From IMG/VR virus record IMGVR_UViG_3300030451_003766, positions 1 through 22,305 of that record: a DNA stretch of 22,305 nt; one strand, 5' to 3'. Of this stretch, positions 4,608-22,305 are shown piece after piece. Position 1 is the first letter of the stretch. Each line of letters opens with the position of its first letter. Position numbers and translations under genes: made by a program. The DNA is from a virus. The notes under the pieces were generated by a model that saw nothing but the letters and a program-made list of their open reading frames with translations, had not been told where the DNA came from and ran no database searches.

Positions 4608-5636
4608 TCAGTTAAGATAAATTAATGACCCAGTGACCTTAACGATTCCTGCTGCCTTGAGATCTAGTGTAGATTTAGAATCAATCGTTGCTTTAGCAGC
4701 ATCCAGCTTGAAATCAGCAGATTCAACATCCAATTGTGCCGTTTTTACAGTGGTTTTAGCAGATTCTAACCCTAAATCTGCACTTCTAATATCCATAGGA
4801 CCTGGTGTATTAATTGCAAGACCAGCAACACCAGCATACATTGCTTGTGTTGTTGTGGTTATTTTAAGACCATAAGTCCTATCTTTTATTAATAAACCAG
4901 CACCACCTATAGAACTTATGTGCACATTTCCTATCGCTCTTAAAGCATAATCACCAAGAACTTTATGGTTAATACAACCAGCTGAAACTATATTTGTGGA
5001 AGATCGTGGATCAAATTTGATATCAGAAGATTCTCCTGCACCAAAATTCATATCCTGTCCTATTGTAATTTCTTTCTTATTAATCTGTGCTTTAGTGAAA
5101 GATGCTGCTGCCATCTCTATATCACCTTGAGCTTGTATTTTGACAGACTGACCATTAAGAACTAAATCTTCAGTTGCTTCAATTAAAATCTTTGCTGCTT
5201 TGAGATATCGTGTACCACCAATGGTTTCTTCTACAATATCTCCATAAGCAAGAACATTTAATGCTTGTCCTTCATTGTCTGATCCACCAACATTATATTG
5301 AATATTAGATCTTTCATAATGTATTTGTTGTTGACCATATGTTTTGATACCCAACATACCAGTACCAGCAATATCAGTCTTCTCTCCTGTTATAATTCTA
5401 ATGTTACCTTTATTGTTTAATACAATAGCAGAATCTGCTGGTCCATCAATCCTAAGTGCACATGTTAGATTGTCTGGTAACATTCTCTCATAGATCTCTG
5501 ATCTAGTAAGACTTCCTTTCCAAACAGTCCTAAACTTCGGACCACTTGATAATTCCTGAGTTTCATCAGGGGTAGTCTGTTTAAACAGATCAGTTGGATA
5601 AGTAGATGCAGGAAATTCTAAAGTCATTATGGGCAA
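4608..5636 (-). CDS. Beta-helical baseplate spike protein (gp5 C-terminal/VgrG-like)
   Basis: This is a 342-residue protein. From about residue 145 onward it consists of short repeated beta segments of the type seen in the gp5/VgrG needle (VKIQAQGDIEMAAAS; near the end STLDLKAAGIVKVTGSLIYLN). Such repeats form a trimeric beta-helix that pierces the host envelope. In T4 this needle is the C-terminal part of gp5; here it is a separate gene whose start overlaps the gp5-like hub gene by 10 bases, so the two are probably made together and assemble into one spike. The N-terminal part (residues 1-60) would be the docking end. No enzymatic motif is seen. It is the last gene of the hub operon. Confidence 0.7.
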   Translation of the reverse strand: MPIMTLEFPASTYPTDLFKQTTPDETQELSSGPKFRTVWKGSLTRSEIYERMLPDNLTCALRIDGPADSAIVLNNKGNIRIITGEKTDIAGTGMLGIKTYGQQQIHYERSNIQYNVGGSDNEGQALNVLAYGDIVEETIGGTRYLKAAKILIEATEDLVLNGQSVKIQAQGDIEMAAASFTKAQINKKEITIGQDMNFGAGESSDIKFDPRSSTNIVSAGCINHKVLGDYALRAIGNVHISSIGGAGLLIKDRTYGLKITTTTQAMYAGVAGLAINTPGPMDIRSADLGLESAKTTVKTAQLDVESADFKLDAAKATIDSKSTLDLKAAGIVKVTGSLIYLN

Positions 5637-8452
5637 TCAATATACTGACCAGTACCAATCTTAGTAGCACCAACTGTTGCTAGTGCATCTGTATCTAGAC
5701 ATGCTAGTGATGGGAGTAATTTAGCACCATAACCACCACCTCCTACAATATTAATTGTAGGGAATCTATCAAATGTCATTTCTCTGTTTAATATACGAGC
5801 ACCAATAACAAAACCATCATCATTTATAACAGCTTCTGCAATACCCAATTCACCATTAACATATAAATCAGGTGCTGTAGTATATCCTATACCTGGTCTA
5901 AGAATAGTAAATGCATCTATTATACATCTTACACCTTTATCTTTTGCCAAATTCTTTTTATATCCAAAACCTGAGGATTGAACTCTTATCTCTGTTAAGA
6001 ATCCATCTGAATCTAATAGACCAGTAGCAGTTGCACCACTACCTTCACCACCAACAAACACATAAGGTGGTTCAGCCCAAGGAGATCCAGGATTATCAAC
6101 AGGTATTTCTATAATTCCACCACTATCATCTGTTATAACATCATCTATATTAACAATTGGTGGTTTAAAACCTTCAAATACAGTTTCAGGAGAATCTCCT
6201 AGACCTTCATCATAATCATTAATATCTTGATCATCTGATGCAGTAATAAGAACATCAACAGATGCACCTTTGCCTGTAATACTAAAAATTAAAGTCTCTT
6301 CATCTTCTATTGTATTATCTTCTGCAATACCAACAGTTACTTTAGAAGAATTGTTATTAACAATGAAACTACCAGTTAATTGACCACCTATAATATCTGT
6401 ACTTGTTATATTATTTCCTGATAAGTTATAGTATAGAATTGCTCCATTTTCAACATTAGTTGTAGTAATAGTATAGATTATAAATGCATCTTCAGGACAA
6501 GTAGTTCTATTAGCAACTACAGTATAAGTTGGTGTAGGATCTATACCAGTATCATCTTCACTATCATCATCACCTGGTGGATCATCTGGGAAATTATCTT
6601 CACTTGGTGGAACAAAAGGTTCAAAAGGATTTACTGGATCTGCAGGGTATGGATTATATGGTTCTTTAAGATCTTTTTCAATGATCGTACCTTTACCAAT
6701 GTTATTCGTAAACATCGTAATAATTTCACTATCATTAACAGGAGAATTAGTTCTTAATCTAATATAGAATGTCTCATTAGAATCTTTTTCATCGTCAATC
6801 AATGTTTGAACAGATATAAACTTTTCTGATTCTCCTACATTAAAACCAAGAATACCATCTTGCTTTAAATAATCAACTTCAGGAGTTGCAGTACCTTGTT
6901 TATTAATAGTTTTATATGTAACAGAAGAAGATACATCAAGATTACCACTTCTAGTTACAGTAAATACAGCTTCATCACCTTCAGTAACTTCAACATTATT
7001 AATGTTATAGACTATCTTAGATTGAGGTAATGGTTTGGGAACACCACCTGTAAATCCAACTGTAGTTACATCTAATGGTTTACCAGTATATGCATCTTCA
7101 CAAACATACTGTGTGTAATCTGCAGGTGTATCACCAAAAAGATTATCTAAACTTGATAATAAACCATCTAAGAAACCTTCTTCATCATCCTCCTTCTTCT
7201 CTCCAGTTGTGCATACTTTCTTCCACTTAGCACATTTTTGATCTGGACCTGAGCAAGAAATACCAAGAAGTCTTAGAACATAATTAATTGCATTACCAAT
7301 AAGATTAAAGGGAGCTGCTATTGCTCCAAGAATATCACTCAATGGACCTAAAATGCTATTAAGCAATTCGGTCATTAACTGTTGAATCTTAGAAATAATA
7401 CCATTAACTAACTCATCAACCTGACATACTGCATTACGATATATCTGACTAAGATAACTCATCAATACATTGGTTAACCATGCTGCCAATCTATCTCCAA
7501 GATCTGCCATCTGACATCCAAGATCTTTAAGCATCTTGTTAAACCACTCTGTAACTGGAGTAAGAGCGTTTCCTTTTTCATCAGGACGTAATATTGCTTT
7601 AACTAATGCATCAACTGCCTTTTGTAGCAATGATGCAATATATCCTTTTATTCTTGCTAGAAATTCACGTACAATATAAATTGCTTTATTTACTGTACTT
7701 CTAGCTTTACCTATACCATTAGTAAGTCCACCAGTATACTTGTTTACATAATAAGTTCCTATATTACCATTATTGTCCTGTATATCTTTTAAAAGTGTTC
7801 CTATAACTCCAGACATCTTAGATTTAAGATCTTGATCCTCACATTTCTTTGCCGTCTCTTGACACCATTCTTCTTGTTTAACAGACGCTTTCTTCTTTTC
7901 TGCTAGATCAACTCTTTGATCCCCATTACCATCTTTACTTCCATCAGATAATCCACCACCAGATGTATTTACTTTTCCTTCATCCTTTTTCTCACAATAT
8001 GGATTTCCATCAGTTGTTGGATTTAATGAATTACTATCTGTCTTTAACGCAGTTACAAATCTGTTATCGTTATTAGGATCTTCCTCATTAATAATAGTTG
8101 TAGAACCTGGAACTGTACCTATTGAACCCATGATTATGGGTTTCTGTTTATCATTATCCAAATAAAAACCAATGACCCAACATCCTGGAATTAATTGTGG
8201 ATGTGCTCCACCAGTATTTCCAGGCATGAAGGGTACATTGACAGGCATCATCACAGTTGCCCATGGCAAATCTTTAGTAGGCAGAAGGGTTTTATCCTTA
8301 GGATGATCCCCAACGATTGCTACTTTATAACGGTACCCACCTTTGTTGTTTTCTTCATCGGTGGCAGTACCTTCTATTTGTCCAACCCACCAACTAAATC
8401 CATCGGATCCAATCCGATTAGCTGGTATCAACTGTGATAATTTCTGATCCAT
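5627..8452 (-). CDS. gp5: gp5-like baseplate hub protein without lysozyme domain
   Basis: The 941-residue protein starts with the gp5 OB-fold (residues about 15-120: GFSWWVGQIEG, DLPWATVMMPV, VIGFYLDN, PIIMGSIG), which in T4 caps the gp27 ring. No lysozyme domain follows. Instead there is a low-complexity linker, a long helical/hydrophobic region (about 230-420), a Calx-beta domain at about 487-590 (EVTEGDEAVFTVTRSG ... DSNETFYIRL), a second weaker one at about 642-745, and a C-terminal Gly-rich beta repeat (GFGYKK, GIGYTTAP, GGGGYGAK). Calx-beta domains bind calcium or give adhesion surfaces, so this hub may contact the host. Its ATG follows directly on the CP12 stop. Homologues are annotated baseplate lysozyme by similarity to T4, which is doubtful here. 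Confidence 0.82.
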   Translation of the reverse strand: MDQKLSQLIPANRIGSDGFSWWVGQIEGTATDEENNKGGYRYKVAIVGDHPKDKTLLPTKDLPWATVMMPVNVPFMPGNTGGAHPQLIPGCWVIGFYLDNDKQKPIIMGSIGTVPGSTTIINEEDPNNDNRFVTALKTDSNSLNPTTDGNPYCEKKDEGKVNTSGGGLSDGSKDGNGDQRVDLAEKKKASVKQEEWCQETAKKCEDQDLKSKMSGVIGTLLKDIQDNNGNIGTYYVNKYTGGLTNGIGKARSTVNKAIYIVREFLARIKGYIASLLQKAVDALVKAILRPDEKGNALTPVTEWFNKMLKDLGCQMADLGDRLAAWLTNVLMSYLSQIYRNAVCQVDELVNGIISKIQQLMTELLNSILGPLSDILGAIAAPFNLIGNAINYVLRLLGISCSGPDQKCAKWKKVCTTGEKKEDDEEGFLDGLLSSLDNLFGDTPADYTQYVCEDAYTGKPLDVTTVGFTGGVPKPLPQSKIVYNINNVEVTEGDEAVFTVTRSGNLDVSSSVTYKTINKQGTATPEVDYLKQDGILGFNVGESEKFISVQTLIDDEKDSNETFYIRLRTNSPVNDSEIITMFTNNIGKGTIIEKDLKEPYNPYPADPVNPFEPFVPPSEDNFPDDPPGDDDSEDDTGIDPTPTYTVVANRTTCPEDAFIIYTITTTNVENGAILYYNLSGNNITSTDIIGGQLTGSFIVNNNSSKVTVGIAEDNTIEDEETLIFSITGKGASVDVLITASDDQDINDYDEGLGDSPETVFEGFKPPIVNIDDVITDDSGGIIEIPVDNPGSPWAEPPYVFVGGEGSGATATGLLDSDGFLTEIRVQSSGFGYKKNLAKDKGVRCIIDAFTILRPGIGYTTAPDLYVNGELGIAEAVINDDGFVIGARILNREMTFDRFPTINIVGGGGYGAKLLPSLACLDTDALATVGATKIGTGQYIDCP

Positions 8453-8680
8453 TTAATCATCGTATATTAAGCATTCTGGTTCATCAGGATGTTGATCGCA
8501 AAAGAGTTCAATAGCATTAGGATCGTGATGATCTCCTGCTTCAATCTCTTGCTTATGATGTTCAACATACTCTTCTAACTCATGTAGTTCCTCCTTATAG
8601 TGACGACGTGCTGCTGGATTTGTTGTTGGATCTTCTATGATCTTTTTATCCTGAGCTATATGGTCTTCTATTGTTTTCAT
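8453..8680 (-). CDS. cp12: CP12-like Calvin cycle inhibitor
   Basis: A 75-residue, highly charged protein whose C-terminus (IELFCDQHPDEPECLIYDD) carries the CP12 signature: two cysteines eight residues apart and the acidic ...C..YDD end. In the host CP12 ties up GAPDH and phosphoribulokinase when oxidised, shutting off carbon fixation; phage copies are thought to steer carbon to the pentose phosphate pathway and nucleotide synthesis. As in other short phage forms, the N-terminal Cys pair is absent; that half is helical (HYKEELHELEEYVEHH). It has a strong Shine-Dalgarno (AAGGAGGT) and its TAA touches the ATG of the gp5-like gene, so this metabolic gene is expressed with the late tail genes. 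Confidence 0.85.
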   Translation of the reverse strand: MKTIEDHIAQDKKIIEDPTTNPAARRHYKEELHELEEYVEHHKQEIEAGDHHDPNAIELFCDQHPDEPECLIYDD

Positions 8681-8705: not shown

Positions 8706-10145
8706 TTATTTAGTTCCGTGTCCAGAATCCTTGTCCTTCATACCATAAGAGTCTCTCATAAGACGAAGGGTTGTGAGAAATCTTCCATTTGTACCGATAG
8801 TTCTGTCATATGTATGAGTTGCCTCTTGAATGAGGTATAATCCACTACTCTCTTTATCAAATGGTTCTTTCTTGGCTTCTTTATCTGGTAACTTATTTAC
8901 TAGTCTAACATCAATTTTATCTCCTGCACATATTTCAGCATTCCCAGGTATTACGATAGTACATTGCTGATTCTTTAACAATTGATATCTTGCAAGAGAC
9001 TGAGCTGCATAAAATTTTTGCCAATCTGCAAATTCAGTTGGTTTCTGTGCACCATCCTTTTCATCTATAGAAGCAATATTTGGTTCATTAAACCAAGTCT
9101 CATGATCTAACATCATAGACATAACCCTTGAATGTTGATCAGATAGTTCTTCCTGATTTACAGGAACTAAAGATAATGTTTCTTGTCCACCAAGATGTGC
9201 CATATTATCATAACTACTCTTGATTTTATAAACATATTCATCATATTGACCAGTAGAATGATTAAAGAATACTACTTTACTAGCATATTTTCCCTTTCTT
9301 AAGGATGTCATTAAATCAATTTCAGAATCAAATATAGATTCATATATGGTAAATCTATCATCAGCACCATCATCCTGATTACCTACTTTTTCTACATAAG
9401 GTCCCCATGATTCAGATACAAGTCTTGGAGCAGAGAATGTGCCACCTGGTTCATCACACAAAGCATCAACAGAAAAGAAATTATATCCTCTCCTAGTTTC
9501 CCAGAAGAAAAATCCACTAGATCCTCTAATTTCCTCATTATTCTCTTTATTACCAGACCATGGTAAAGAAGATTGTGTAGATGTATTTGTCTGACCCCAT
9601 TTTCCCTTAGAAGAAACAGATTTAATTGCTAATGAAGATATAATATCAAAAGGTCTTCTCCTATTAGGAAGTAATTTAACTTGGAACATAGATGGTTCAG
9701 AGAAGATTTGTTTTGATGATTTTAATTCTTGTTGTAATAGAGATTCTATAATTTGCTCTGGATTACCTTCCTGACGAGTTAATATTCTTGTACCTTCATT
9801 AACAAGAGCTTCTTGTGATATTAAACCTACAGTATATGTTTGTTTTTTCTGTTTTGCAAAACGATTACCAATTTTCCAAATAACAAAACTGTACTCAAAT
9901 GATTCATCTCTAATATTAGTATCAACAGCAATTAATAACTTTTCACCTCCCTCAATAGGCATACCTTGCAATAATCCACCACTATCAACTACTTCCATTG
10001 TTGCAGAAAGAAATGGAGAAGTAATATCTTCAACATAATTAAGTGCAGTAACTAACTGCTTAATTTCTATTGGTTCCTCCTTACCTTGAGGATATATCCT
10101 TACAGACTTTAAACGAAAATCTGTATTAGACTGAAATTTTGCCAT
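8706..10145 (-). CDS. Baseplate hub protein, gp27-like
   Basis: This 479-residue protein sits between the tape-measure-like gene and the gp5-type hub, the place where contractile tails encode the hub ring on which gp5 sits. The N-terminal part (residues 1-110: LVTALNYVEDITSPFLSATMEV, a GGEKL segment) looks like the first beta-domain of gp27/gpD-type hub proteins, and the centre has FDIISSLAIK. T4 gp27 is shorter (391 residues). Similarity is by pattern and position, so gp27 equivalence is inferred. A trimer would form the hub at the tail tube's lower end. It starts one base after the stop of the upstream gene begins (overlap at 10145). Confidence 0.7.
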   Translation of the reverse strand: MAKFQSNTDFRLKSVRIYPQGKEEPIEIKQLVTALNYVEDITSPFLSATMEVVDSGGLLQGMPIEGGEKLLIAVDTNIRDESFEYSFVIWKIGNRFAKQKKQTYTVGLISQEALVNEGTRILTRQEGNPEQIIESLLQQELKSSKQIFSEPSMFQVKLLPNRRRPFDIISSLAIKSVSSKGKWGQTNTSTQSSLPWSGNKENNEEIRGSSGFFFWETRRGYNFFSVDALCDEPGGTFSAPRLVSESWGPYVEKVGNQDDGADDRFTIYESIFDSEIDLMTSLRKGKYASKVVFFNHSTGQYDEYVYKIKSSYDNMAHLGGQETLSLVPVNQEELSDQHSRVMSMMLDHETWFNEPNIASIDEKDGAQKPTEFADWQKFYAAQSLARYQLLKNQQCTIVIPGNAEICAGDKIDVRLVNKLPDKEAKKEPFDKESSGLYLIQEATHTYDRTIGTNGRFLTTLRLMRDSYGMKDKDSGHGTK

Positions 10146-12361
10146 TATGCTAATGACCTCAATCCCATCTCCTGGAATATATCAGTTCCAGTATCAGAAG
10201 AACTAATACCAAAAGGCATACCCAATGTAGCGGTACTACCATCACCACCACCAGCAGCACCACCGCCACTATCTCCATAGTAATTATTGATGATATTAAC
10301 ACCACCAGAAGCTGCTTGTGAAGCAAGAGCTAACTCATTTGATTTGTCACCAGCTCCAAAGAGGGAATTCATACCATCTAATAAACTCTGATCTGTACTA
10401 CTATTATTATAGATTCCCCTTAATGTCTCATTAGTTTTAGTTGGTTGACCATAGTTATTACCAGGGAAAGATGCCCATACTGGAGAGAGTTTTTTAATAA
10501 TTTCATCACTCAAACCCTGTTCCTTAAGAAGTTCTGGAGTTACACCTTTTTCTGCTGCTAGGAACATTGCTAGTTGATCTTGAAATTCTGGTGTAAACAT
10601 CTGTGTAGAAGTATCAACTCCCATTCTCTTAGCATGATCTTTTAAGAAAGTAAATTGATATCTACCAACAGCAGCAGAATTTTGTCCATTACCAAACTTA
10701 CCTTTACCTGCATTTAAGAAGTCACCTTGTAAATCATGCATCTGATCAATTGTATATCCAGATAAATCTTTACCACCAAATTCCTGATGACCAAACCATG
10801 TATTATATCCAGGATTTCCTTCAGCATGTGCAATAGTATTCAATAATGCTTGTGTTTCATTATTTTTAACACCTTGACTAGTATCCTTATTACCAAAGAA
10901 TCTACCCCACAAATTCTTAGCACCATCAATCATATTTGGTATTAAACCTTTATTATTAGTTGGAGGTGAAGTAGTATTATTAGATGAAGTATTGTTATTA
11001 TCAGATTTATCGTCACCAAAGAACCAACTAAGAAGACCTTTATTACCACCATCAAATGCTTTAGTTAGATCATTTTTACGTTTGATCTGTGCCTCTACTA
11101 TACCTTCACCAAACATTCTAAATGTTTCTTTTCCTTCTTTACCTGAAAGTGGGAAAACACCTTCTCTTTGACCCTCTTCACTTAAGATACCAGCAATTGG
11201 AGAAGATGTAATACCACCTTCCTTAAATGGAGTTAATCCCATATCTCTACCAATCAATGCAGCATCAATTCCAACAGATGCAGCAGTTCCAAGACCAGGA
11301 ATTGTTGAAGATGCACCAGATGCTAGCTCTAATGCAGCACCAGTCCAATCTCCTGCCATTGCTCTTTGAGCAGCAAATATGGCACCAAGACCCAATCCAA
11401 CTAGAGGAATTTTCTTTCCTAATGCTTTACCCAATCCTTTTTTCAATGCTCCTTTCCCCGCATTTTTGATTCCTAGTCTAGCACCTTGTCTTGCACCAAA
11501 TTTAACAATTTTATTTGCAGCAGTTTTACTACCTCTTTTAGCAAAATGTCTTGCTAATCCTCTTCCACCAACTCTTGCCAATGCTCTGGTCCCCACTCTG
11601 CCGAGACCTCTTCTACCAATCGTCTTAAGTGCTTTTGCACCACCTAAGAGATTCATTCCAGTACCTAATAAACCAGCACCACCTCCAAGAAGACCTCCTC
11701 CACCACGACGTTGAGCAACTTTCTCGTAAGCAATATTATCAGAAAAATCTCCACCTTGCTCAATCTGATTCTCTTCTGCTCTAGAAAGTGCTCTACTTGC
11801 TAATTTTTCTGCCTGTTGATGTTGTATTTGAGCAATTGCCTTTTGTCCAGCTGTTTGATCTTCTGTAGCTTGAACTAATTGGCGTGTAACATATGTTAGT
11901 CTATCAATTGCTTGAACTATTTCATCTGATCCACTACCTGCTATTGTTGCTGATTTAGCAAACATATCATCATCAATTGATGACGATGTTGGTGTTATAT
12001 TAATAAGTGCATCAGAAGCACGAGGTTCTGGTCTTAAACTACCTGCACCAAAATTAACAATATTTTTAGCAAGAGATCCACCAAATACATCTGGATTAAT
12101 CCCTCTATCACCAGCAATAGACTTTTGTACACCATCATTAAGATTAGCAAATCTAGAACCACCTAAAAGACCCTTTGGTTCTGATCCTGCTATTTGTGCT
12201 ACTTGTTGAGATACTTCTGTAGATAACTTTCCAGACTCAGGAGTTTTTAAAAGATCCAAAAAACCTTTAATACCACCTTTCATGGTATTAAACAATTTCC
12301 CATACCTGAGATCCTTGTTTTTGCCTCTTGTGTCTTTTGGTGTTAAAAATCCGTGTGCCAT
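10145..12361 (-). CDS. Tape-measure-like tail protein with C-terminal lambda R-type lytic transglycosylase domain
   Basis: The 738-residue protein follows the chaperone pair, the standard site of the tape measure gene. Residues about 215-370 are Gly/Ala/Arg-rich with hydrophobic stretches (GLLGGGAGLLGTG, VGLGLGAIFAA, GLGTAASVGIDAALI), as in tape measure proteins. Residues about 500-650 form a muralytic domain like phage lambda endolysin R (GH104): TIAHAEG with candidate catalytic Glu514, SAAVGRYQF, FQDQLAMFL and WASFPGNNYGQP. This would cut host peptidoglycan during DNA injection, the job done in T4 by the gp5 lysozyme. A Gly-rich C-terminal tail follows. Tape measure function is inferred from position and composition; 738 residues is short for a tape measure of a long tail, and a hub-lysozyme is the alternative. 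Confidence 0.7.
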   Translation of the reverse strand: MAHGFLTPKDTRGKNKDLRYGKLFNTMKGGIKGFLDLLKTPESGKLSTEVSQQVAQIAGSEPKGLLGGSRFANLNDGVQKSIAGDRGINPDVFGGSLAKNIVNFGAGSLRPEPRASDALINITPTSSSIDDDMFAKSATIAGSGSDEIVQAIDRLTYVTRQLVQATEDQTAGQKAIAQIQHQQAEKLASRALSRAEENQIEQGGDFSDNIAYEKVAQRRGGGGLLGGGAGLLGTGMNLLGGAKALKTIGRRGLGRVGTRALARVGGRGLARHFAKRGSKTAANKIVKFGARQGARLGIKNAGKGALKKGLGKALGKKIPLVGLGLGAIFAAQRAMAGDWTGAALELASGASSTIPGLGTAASVGIDAALIGRDMGLTPFKEGGITSSPIAGILSEEGQREGVFPLSGKEGKETFRMFGEGIVEAQIKRKNDLTKAFDGGNKGLLSWFFGDDKSDNNNTSSNNTTSPPTNNKGLIPNMIDGAKNLWGRFFGNKDTSQGVKNNETQALLNTIAHAEGNPGYNTWFGHQEFGGKDLSGYTIDQMHDLQGDFLNAGKGKFGNGQNSAAVGRYQFTFLKDHAKRMGVDTSTQMFTPEFQDQLAMFLAAEKGVTPELLKEQGLSDEIIKKLSPVWASFPGNNYGQPTKTNETLRGIYNNSSTDQSLLDGMNSLFGAGDKSNELALASQAASGGVNIINNYYGDSGGGAAGGGDGSTATLGMPFGISSSDTGTDIFQEMGLRSLA

Positions 12362-12546
12362 TATCTTTTTGCGGCTTCTTGTTGTTGCTTGAGTTGATCC
12401 AAGTGTTGCATTAGAAGACTAGTGTACACTTGTCTCTCCCATGGCATCATATTTTCAATTTCACTCAAGCTATATTTATGGTGTTGCATCAAAGCGAAAT
12501 TAGTTTTGTAGTATCCCTCTAGCGTTTGATGGAAGAGGGCTATCCG
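12361..12546 (-). CDS. -1 frameshift extension of gp26 (tail chaperone C-terminal segment; T4 gp51 position)
   Basis: After the slippery site an open frame runs 61 codons (RIALFHQTLEGYYKTNF... to ...QQQEAAKR) to a TAA that overlaps the ATG of the next gene (TAATG). No ATG or GTG with a Shine-Dalgarno opens it; the first ATG (12489) would discard the conserved-looking EGYYKTNFAL part. The content (YSLSEIENMMPWERQVY, then a charged helix) has the look of the second segment of tail assembly chaperones, which in lambda (gpG/gpGT) is made by -1 frameshifting just before the tape measure gene. Full fused product: 12361-13253, about 297 residues. T4 has gp51 at this place between 26 and 27. Confidence 0.7.
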   Translation of the reverse strand, partial: RIALFHQTLEGYYKTNFALMQHHKYSLSEIENMMPWERQVYTSLLMQHLDQLKQQQEAAKR

Positions 12547-13253
12547 AAAAAATTGGCTAACCCCATAATTACAAATTCTGACGTTTCTCCTGTATTTGGA
12601 TTAACTACTGAAAACTTATGTTCCATGCGTGGTGATGATGCAAAGAATTCCTGTAATTTCTCAAATTGAGTGTTTGTAAGACCTTCTACAAATTCAGTAA
12701 ATTCCTTTTTAGTAGTAGTGGAAGAATCATATACATCTTCTTTATCAAATATCTGATCTATACAACCAGAAACTAAATCAACAATTCCATCTGCTGTAGG
12801 AGCAGCTCCCATAACAGAACCAACGATAAATTCATTCCATCCAGGATGTTTCATAATTACACCCATATTATCAGTGAGCATAATTTTAGGATCATACTTT
12901 GGTGGTTTTGTTACTTGTACTTCAGTTAAATCTAAGTTATATGCAACTTGTGTAGTATTATCATCTTTACAAACAACCTTCATTTCAACAACACTACCAA
13001 CAGAAACTGAACGTATATTTAAGAAGATGTACTCTAAATCAAAAACTGGCAATTCTTCTACTTTTACTCTACTGATTATACAACCTTTTAATAAAGTCTT
13101 AACTGCTTTCTCTATTTCTTTTTCGTCATTTGTCTCTAATGCCAATAAAAGGAGTTTTTCTTCTTTTACGACAAATGGACGATATTTAATTTTCTTCCCA
13201 TTTGAAGGAAGCTCCAACTCATATGTTGGTAATACTACTTTTGGTAATGCCAT
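12540..13253 (-). CDS. gp26: gp26-like baseplate hub / tail assembly chaperone
   Basis: The 237-residue protein starts at the ATG at 13253 (MALPKVVLPTYELELPSNGK); a longer in-frame start at 13301 would lie upstream of the late promoter, so it is rejected. The KIKYRPFVVKEEKLLLLA opening and the KEIEKAVKTLLKGCI helix match the T4 baseplate hub family (gp26) of T4-like phages. The T4 protein is 208 residues. Its last codons (AAT TTT TTC GGA TAG) contain the slippery run that lets a fraction of ribosomes shift into the downstream frame. In context it is best viewed as the short chaperone form, with the fused form in lower amount. A late promoter sits 20 bases upstream; no clear Shine-Dalgarno is visible. 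Confidence 0.85.
   Translation of the reverse strand: MALPKVVLPTYELELPSNGKKIKYRPFVVKEEKLLLLALETNDEKEIEKAVKTLLKGCIISRVKVEELPVFDLEYIFLNIRSVSVGSVVEMKVVCKDDNTTQVAYNLDLTEVQVTKPPKYDPKIMLTDNMGVIMKHPGWNEFIVGSVMGAAPTADGIVDLVSGCIDQIFDKEDVYDSSTTTKKEFTEFVEGLTNTQFEKLQEFFASSPRMEHKFSVVNPNTGETSEFVIMGLANFFG
12546..12552 (-). promoter_or_regulatory. Programmed -1 ribosomal frameshift site (T TTT TTC)
   Basis: In the gp26 frame the minus strand reads AAT TTT TTC GGA TAG, so the heptamer T TTT TTC fits X XXY YYZ. Slipping back one base re-pairs both tRNAs with TTT TTT and continues CGG ATA GCC into the 61-codon downstream frame, avoiding the TAG three bases on. Confidence 0.7.
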
Positions 13254-13273: not shown

Positions 13274-13281
13274 TATTTATA
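13274..13281 (-). promoter_or_regulatory. T4-type late promoter TATAAATA for the gp26 hub operon
   Basis: An exact TATAAATA on the minus strand lies 20 bases upstream of the gp26 ATG. It sits inside a 6-bp inverted repeat (13266-13271 AAGTCG, 13286-13291 CGACTT). Confidence 0.75.
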
Positions 13282-14041: not shown

Positions 14042-14075
14042 ACTAAATACCTATATTGGTACAAATATATTTATG
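14042..14075. promoter_or_regulatory. Divergent late promoter region between the gp54-like gene and gp4
   Basis: The 31-base gap between divergent genes holds CATAAATA on the minus strand (14068-14075, 7 of 8 late box positions) pointing at the gp54-like gene and ACTAAATA on the plus strand (14042-14049, 6 of 8) pointing at gp4. Each box overlaps the start codon of the opposite gene. A further plus-strand TATAAACT at 14021-14028 is an alternative for gp4. Confidence 0.45.
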
Positions 14076-21933: not shown

Positions 21934-22305
21934 GATAATGCCTCTGATACTATAGGAAATTCTTTTTTAAAAATAGTTCTACAATTTTCTACGATATCCA
22001 TGTGTTCTTTCTGAGTACCATGTGCAGAACGTAAATCTATGTAGTGTATCCATGAACGAACACTACCAGTCATATAAATTCTGGTTGGTGCTGCTAATGG
22101 GAGAACAAATCTCGCACACTCCTTCGCAATACCTGAAGCGAGGAGTTCGTTGTATAGATCCATCGCTTCAACAAAATGTTCAGCAATCTTGTATTGGAGA
22201 TCTGCCTTTTTGTTTTTCGGTACGTCATCTGTACTGTTCTGTCTATTCTTGGTGTCTTGATGCCTAAGATCAAACATAGGAATCTCATCTGCTAACAGAT
22301 TAGTG
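21927..22305 (-). CDS. thyX: Flavin-dependent thymidylate synthase ThyX, C-terminal part (truncated by window edge)
   Basis: The frame stays open to the right edge, so only the last 125 codons are present. Visible ThyX motifs: LRHQDTKNRQNSTDD, CARFVLPLAAPTRIYMTGSVRSWIHYIDLR (flavin/dUMP contacts) and AHGTQKEHMDI. ThyX makes dTMP from dUMP using methylene-tetrahydrofolate and FAD. The canonical RHR motif would lie upstream, outside the window. Its stop overlaps the heme oxygenase start, so thyX is upstream in the same operon. Confidence 0.93.
   Translation of the reverse strand, partial: TNLLADEIPMFDLRHQDTKNRQNSTDDVPKNKKADLQYKIAEHFVEAMDLYNELLASGIAKECARFVLPLAAPTRIYMTGSVRSWIHYIDLRSAHGTQKEHMDIVENCRTIFKKEFPIVSEALSW

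Follow-up and report, generated by a model that had tools for sequence, protein, structure and literature searches.

A conserved slip site at the end of gp26 in a marine T4-like phage and a probable −1 frameshift into the 'gp51' frame

The locus described here raises the question of whether the short frame behind gp26 in marine T4-like phages is a gene in its own right or the second segment of a gp26 product made by −1 frameshifting. It lies in the 22,305-base IMG/VR virus record IMGVR_UViG_3300030451_003766, a contig of a marine T4-like phage (the window, spanning the record from position 1 to position 22,305), and all coordinates below refer to its minus strand. The gene for gp26 (12540–13253; 237 aa) corresponds to phrog_150 and matches the Pfam family T4_baseplate (PF12322) with an E value of 2.5e-66. 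Its last codons read AAT TTT TTC GGA TAG, with the heptamer T TTT TTC (12546–12552) in the zero frame, fitting the pattern X XXY YYZ, and the stop codon TAG (12540–12542) 3 nt past it. A slip of −1 leads into an extension of 61 codons (12364–12546), whose residues begin RIALFHQTLEGYYKTNFALMQHHKYSLSEIENMMPWERQVY and whose stop TAA (12361–12363) overlaps the start codon ATG (12361–12359) of the gene that follows. A previous sequence-only reading had proposed this slip site and this extension, and both were confirmed at the same coordinates. The fused product has a computed length of 297 aa, against 237 aa for unshifted gp26, with FF-RIA at its junction; in S-PM2, the counterpart of this junction is found in the residues around QSFFRISMFYNNLENYYR. 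The extension itself matches phrog_634, 'baseplate hub assembly catalyst' (gp51), with an E value of 8.8e-27. The number of such heptamers in the window (9, with 9.0 expected) shows no excess over chance, and thus proves nothing alone.

It is the conservation of the heptamer, and not its count in the window, that far exceeds chance. The junction was located in 165 loci (80 plus 85, comprising IMG/VR contigs, four cyanophage isolates, and the window) and in seven more isolates with Synechococcus, Vibrio, Sinorhizobium, Pseudomonas, Methylophilales, and Desulfovibrio as hosts, 171 of these sequences being long enough for the junction counts; the Vibrio nt-1 protein used as a query recovered two further loci only. 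All 171 carried NNT TTT TT[C/T/A] at the same frame position, followed by the −1 extension, so that no relative lacking the U-run was found. Both U6 and the T closing the preceding codon were invariant (171/171), the heptamer being TTTTTTC in 143 loci, TTTTTTT in 25, and TTTTTTA in 3. The second Phe codon was thus TTC in 143/171, although TTT accounts for 75% of the other gp26 Phe codons (first set). The frame of the extension relative to gp26 was −1 in 80/80 and 85/85 loci, with gp51-like sequence in it and no stops between the slip site and the domain, and the same arrangement was present in the Vibrio, Sinorhizobium, Pseudomonas, Methylophilales, and Desulfovibrio phages. The U-run and the −1 frame persisted across gp26 3' ends, as the sequence-only reading had anticipated, but the position of the zero-frame stop did not, being found mostly 3 nt from the slip site and also at 0, 6, or 9 nt. 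In other words, the zero-frame stop drifts whereas the slip site stays put.

The sequence directly past the heptamer is also unusually prone to fold. When 45-nt folding windows from 75 loci were compared with dinucleotide shuffles, the mean z was −2.1 to −2.4 at this position and about 0 elsewhere along gp26 and the extension. With shuffles of synonymous codons that kept the −1 frame protein, the minimum free energy past the heptamer in 67 cyanophage-like loci was −10.6 kcal/mol against −4.3 kcal/mol in the shuffles (mean z −2.9), and control regions treated in the same way gave z values of −0.4 and −0.5. A wider and more distant set of 147 loci gave a mean z of −1.8, with about half of the loci individually significant. 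In the window, a stem-loop of 6 bp, CCCUCU...AGAGGG (12515–12539), begins 6 nt past the heptamer as a putative frameshift stimulator; its support is modest (−9 kcal/mol, synonymous-shuffle p 0.01–0.03, dinucleotide z −1.7), and its register is nearly invariant among loci, so that the window's own stem contributes no covariation. Across the loci, the stems begin about 5–10 nt past the slip site and their pairings differ, falling into at least five registers. Compensatory changes were detected in two of them, the cells with both sides changed exceeding all 500 shuffles, a result to be read with the caution that kinship alone can beat such shuffles and that the registers were picked from the same sequences. 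Rfam held no family matching the stem-loop, and it was not significant in Vibrio D479, S-SSM5, and the Desulfovibrio phage (p > 0.4), for which reason it may be a helper of frameshifting and not a requirement. We see about an even chance that, outside the T4 branch, T4-like phages have kept a very old, fixed slip site and repeatedly rebuilt the stem-loop at the same spot in non-homologous registers, its function kept and its base pairs turned over. This changing stem-loop is the least known part of the system, and the stem-loops offer a natural series for the study of frameshift stimulation.

A hairpin is also able to promote slippage by RNA polymerase, and the homopolymeric run of T6–T8 next to the one found here could in principle be where polymerase makes an mRNA already in the −1 frame. 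However, the run is merely T6 followed by C in 143/171 loci, shorter than those usually needed for transcriptional slippage, and the NNT TTT TTC register, an exact fit to tandem tRNA slippage, is never displaced. We regard this origin of the shifted frame as very unlikely.

Still less likely is the reading adopted in the annotation of S-PM2 and S-RIM32, by which gp51 would be a separate small gene, translated through termination and reinitiation at an ATG just past the gp26 stop. That ATG, annotated as a start in several records, does lie 2 nt past the gp26 stop in 59/171 loci, yet it is missing from the other 112, the window among them. Its place is mostly taken by CTC, CTA, or CTT (CTC in the window, S-CAM4, and S-RSM4), and no conserved start codon for the downstream frame was found. 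All three observations that the sequence-only reading had listed as refuting it, namely a missing U-run, stops in the −1 frame, and such a start codon, were thus looked for in the relatives and not found. In addition, there is no Shine–Dalgarno sequence, the residues ahead of the ATG position (R-I/L/V) are conserved in the −1 frame, both parts are fused in T4 gp51, and a separate gene would leave the invariant U6 unexplained. For 36 non-redundant loci that lack this ATG, pN/pS was 0.25 for extension codons 1–19, 0.19 for codons 20–45, and 0.44 for the end of gp26; the first value places codons 1–19 under purifying selection in these loci and makes it very likely that they are translated. Since the −1 slip would add the gp51 residues to gp26, cyanophage 'gp51' would therefore be the C-terminal part of a frameshift product and not a gene of its own. 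The sequence-only reading had called the extension unannotated, which holds for some close relatives (S-CAM4) and not for S-RSM4, S-PM2, and S-RIM32, where a separate 'gp51' is listed. Finally, the idea that the run reflects only a Phe-Phe constraint on the protein, FF being conserved and present in T4 gp26 too, with the downstream frame a decaying remnant, is barely credible, as the wobble bases and the base before the run are fixed as well, and it is contradicted by a downstream frame open in all loci and under purifying selection.

The T4 proteins provide a further view of the same two segments. Residues 1–201 of T4 gp51 (249 aa) form a PF12322 domain, followed by a segment that matches phrog_634 and aligns with the extension in pairwise comparison (E 0.001). 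T4 gp26 (208 aa) also matches PF12322 and ends where the cyanophage slip site lies. Genes 26 and 51 are adjacent in T4, as the sequence-only reading had it, but on opposite strands, and they are divergent in Aeromonas Aes508 as well. Since T4 gp51 is fused and T4 gp26 ends at the slip position, T4-type phages would make the short and the long form from two genes, and the other phages both forms from one frameshifting gene. The composition of T4 gp51, a gp26-like domain with the same tail, likewise supports the view that gp26 (TAC-N) and the fused product (TAC-NC) are paired tail assembly chaperones, with the extension as TAC-C, and with it the earlier proposal that places the T4 hub-assembly proteins in the chaperone group; in T4, gp26 would be the short chaperone and gp51 the long one. 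A confident predicted model of gp26 (pLDDT 90.6) had no significant match in a fold search of the PDB, its best chaperone match, HK97 2OB9, being in the top ten and below significance; no relative emerged either when solved structures were searched with a profile of the fused protein.

The gene behind the extension (10145–12361; 738 aa) lies within the tail and baseplate cluster at the position expected of a tape measure, and its matches are to a phage 'endolysin' and to unknown families. Tape-measure matches were weak and came from relatives only, and BLAST of T4 gp29 against the downstream genes returned no match; the gene is for this reason described as tape-measure-like, mostly by position. 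Inside the extension, CATAAATA at 12473–12480 agrees with NATAAATA, the late promoter reported from S-PM2 (PMC2984593), and is exact in 114/171 relatives. The His codon within it is CAT in 136/152 cases, against 52/103 for the adjacent His codon (Fisher p 5e-12, computed over loci that are not independent); this bias, together with the conservation of CATAAATA, suggests that a late promoter for the downstream gene is embedded in the extension. Two ATAAATA cores (13274–13280 and 14068–14074), which precede the starts of gp26 and of the tail tube gene by about 21–27 bp, are consistent with late promoters. The window also contains a gp5-like hub protein with a Gp5 OB domain and a Calx-beta domain (5627–8452), a CP12-domain gene (PF02672, a Calvin-cycle regulator; 8453–8680) between tail and baseplate genes, and a manA RNA (RF01745, 177 bits; 1634–2139) adjoining four tRNA genes.

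Given the slip site, the frame, their conservation, the stem-loop, and the T4 homology, it is highly probable that a −1 slip on U UUU UUC yields a minority of long chaperone; we infer the efficiency of the slip, the stoichiometry of the products, and their action on the tape measure. The downstream stem-loop would pause the ribosome in gene 26 with tRNA-Phe on UUU and UUC, and in a minority of ribosomes the tandem tRNA-Phe would slip one base back. Being in the −1 frame, the shifted ribosomes would then not stop at the UAG and would lengthen the protein by 61 residues, the output being presumably much TAC-N of 237 aa and some TAC-NC of 297 aa.

Frameshifting is reportedly conserved in several T4-like groups, with T4 using genes 26 and 51. 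The T4-like TAC genes, their frameshift, and the different solution of T4 were reported by Vladimirov et al. 2022, according to later papers that cite this study. One of them credits it with the poly-T signals for −1 frameshifting found in T4-like TAC-N genes (PMC12846349), and another with T4-like phages in which a short gene and a long, fused one stand in for frameshifting (PMC10885494). As these papers credit that study, the T4-like TAC frameshift is taken as already known, and the window as a clean new instance with no claim of discovery. The G-T frameshift is called conserved 'except T4' in a review (PMC5009743), and neither this review nor PMC2984593 mentions the slip site. What the present analysis corrects is a widespread annotation error, in which cyanophage 'gp51' either figures as a tiny gene of its own or is overlooked. 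Cyanophage gp51 had been described as short, at only about 20% of its usual length, with the first ~200 residues absent, a 'reduced' form covering cyanophages and marine vibriophages (Sullivan et al. 2010, PMC3037559); it would be short because gp26 supplies the missing ~200 residues.

Among known systems, the nearest are the T4-like TACs of Vladimirov et al. 2022, which are also short and long chaperones of the gp26/gp51 type and which, according to the papers citing that study, show poly-T signals for a −1 shift in some T4-like phages and fused long copies in others. The TAC locus of Vandenendeviridae (phage Adele, PMC12846349) resembles the window in its poly-T slip site and in a −1 frame that is open in all genomes and whose downstream part is misannotated as a separate gene, and differs in belonging to another phage family and in its GTTTTT core motif. 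T4 gp26 and gp51 share the PF12322 domain family and the C-terminal segment with the window, but there the two forms come from two opposite-strand genes without a frameshift. Lambda gpG/gpGT is not known to share sequence homology with gp26, gp26 is larger than gpG, and the slippery heptamer of lambda is G GGA AAG, unlike the T TTT TTC of the window. The likeness to lambda would be one of function, with an N part that coats the tape measure and a C part that recruits tail-tube subunits; by this analogy, the TAC-N part in the window could coat the tape-measure protein, and the added C part could recruit the subunits of the tail tube.
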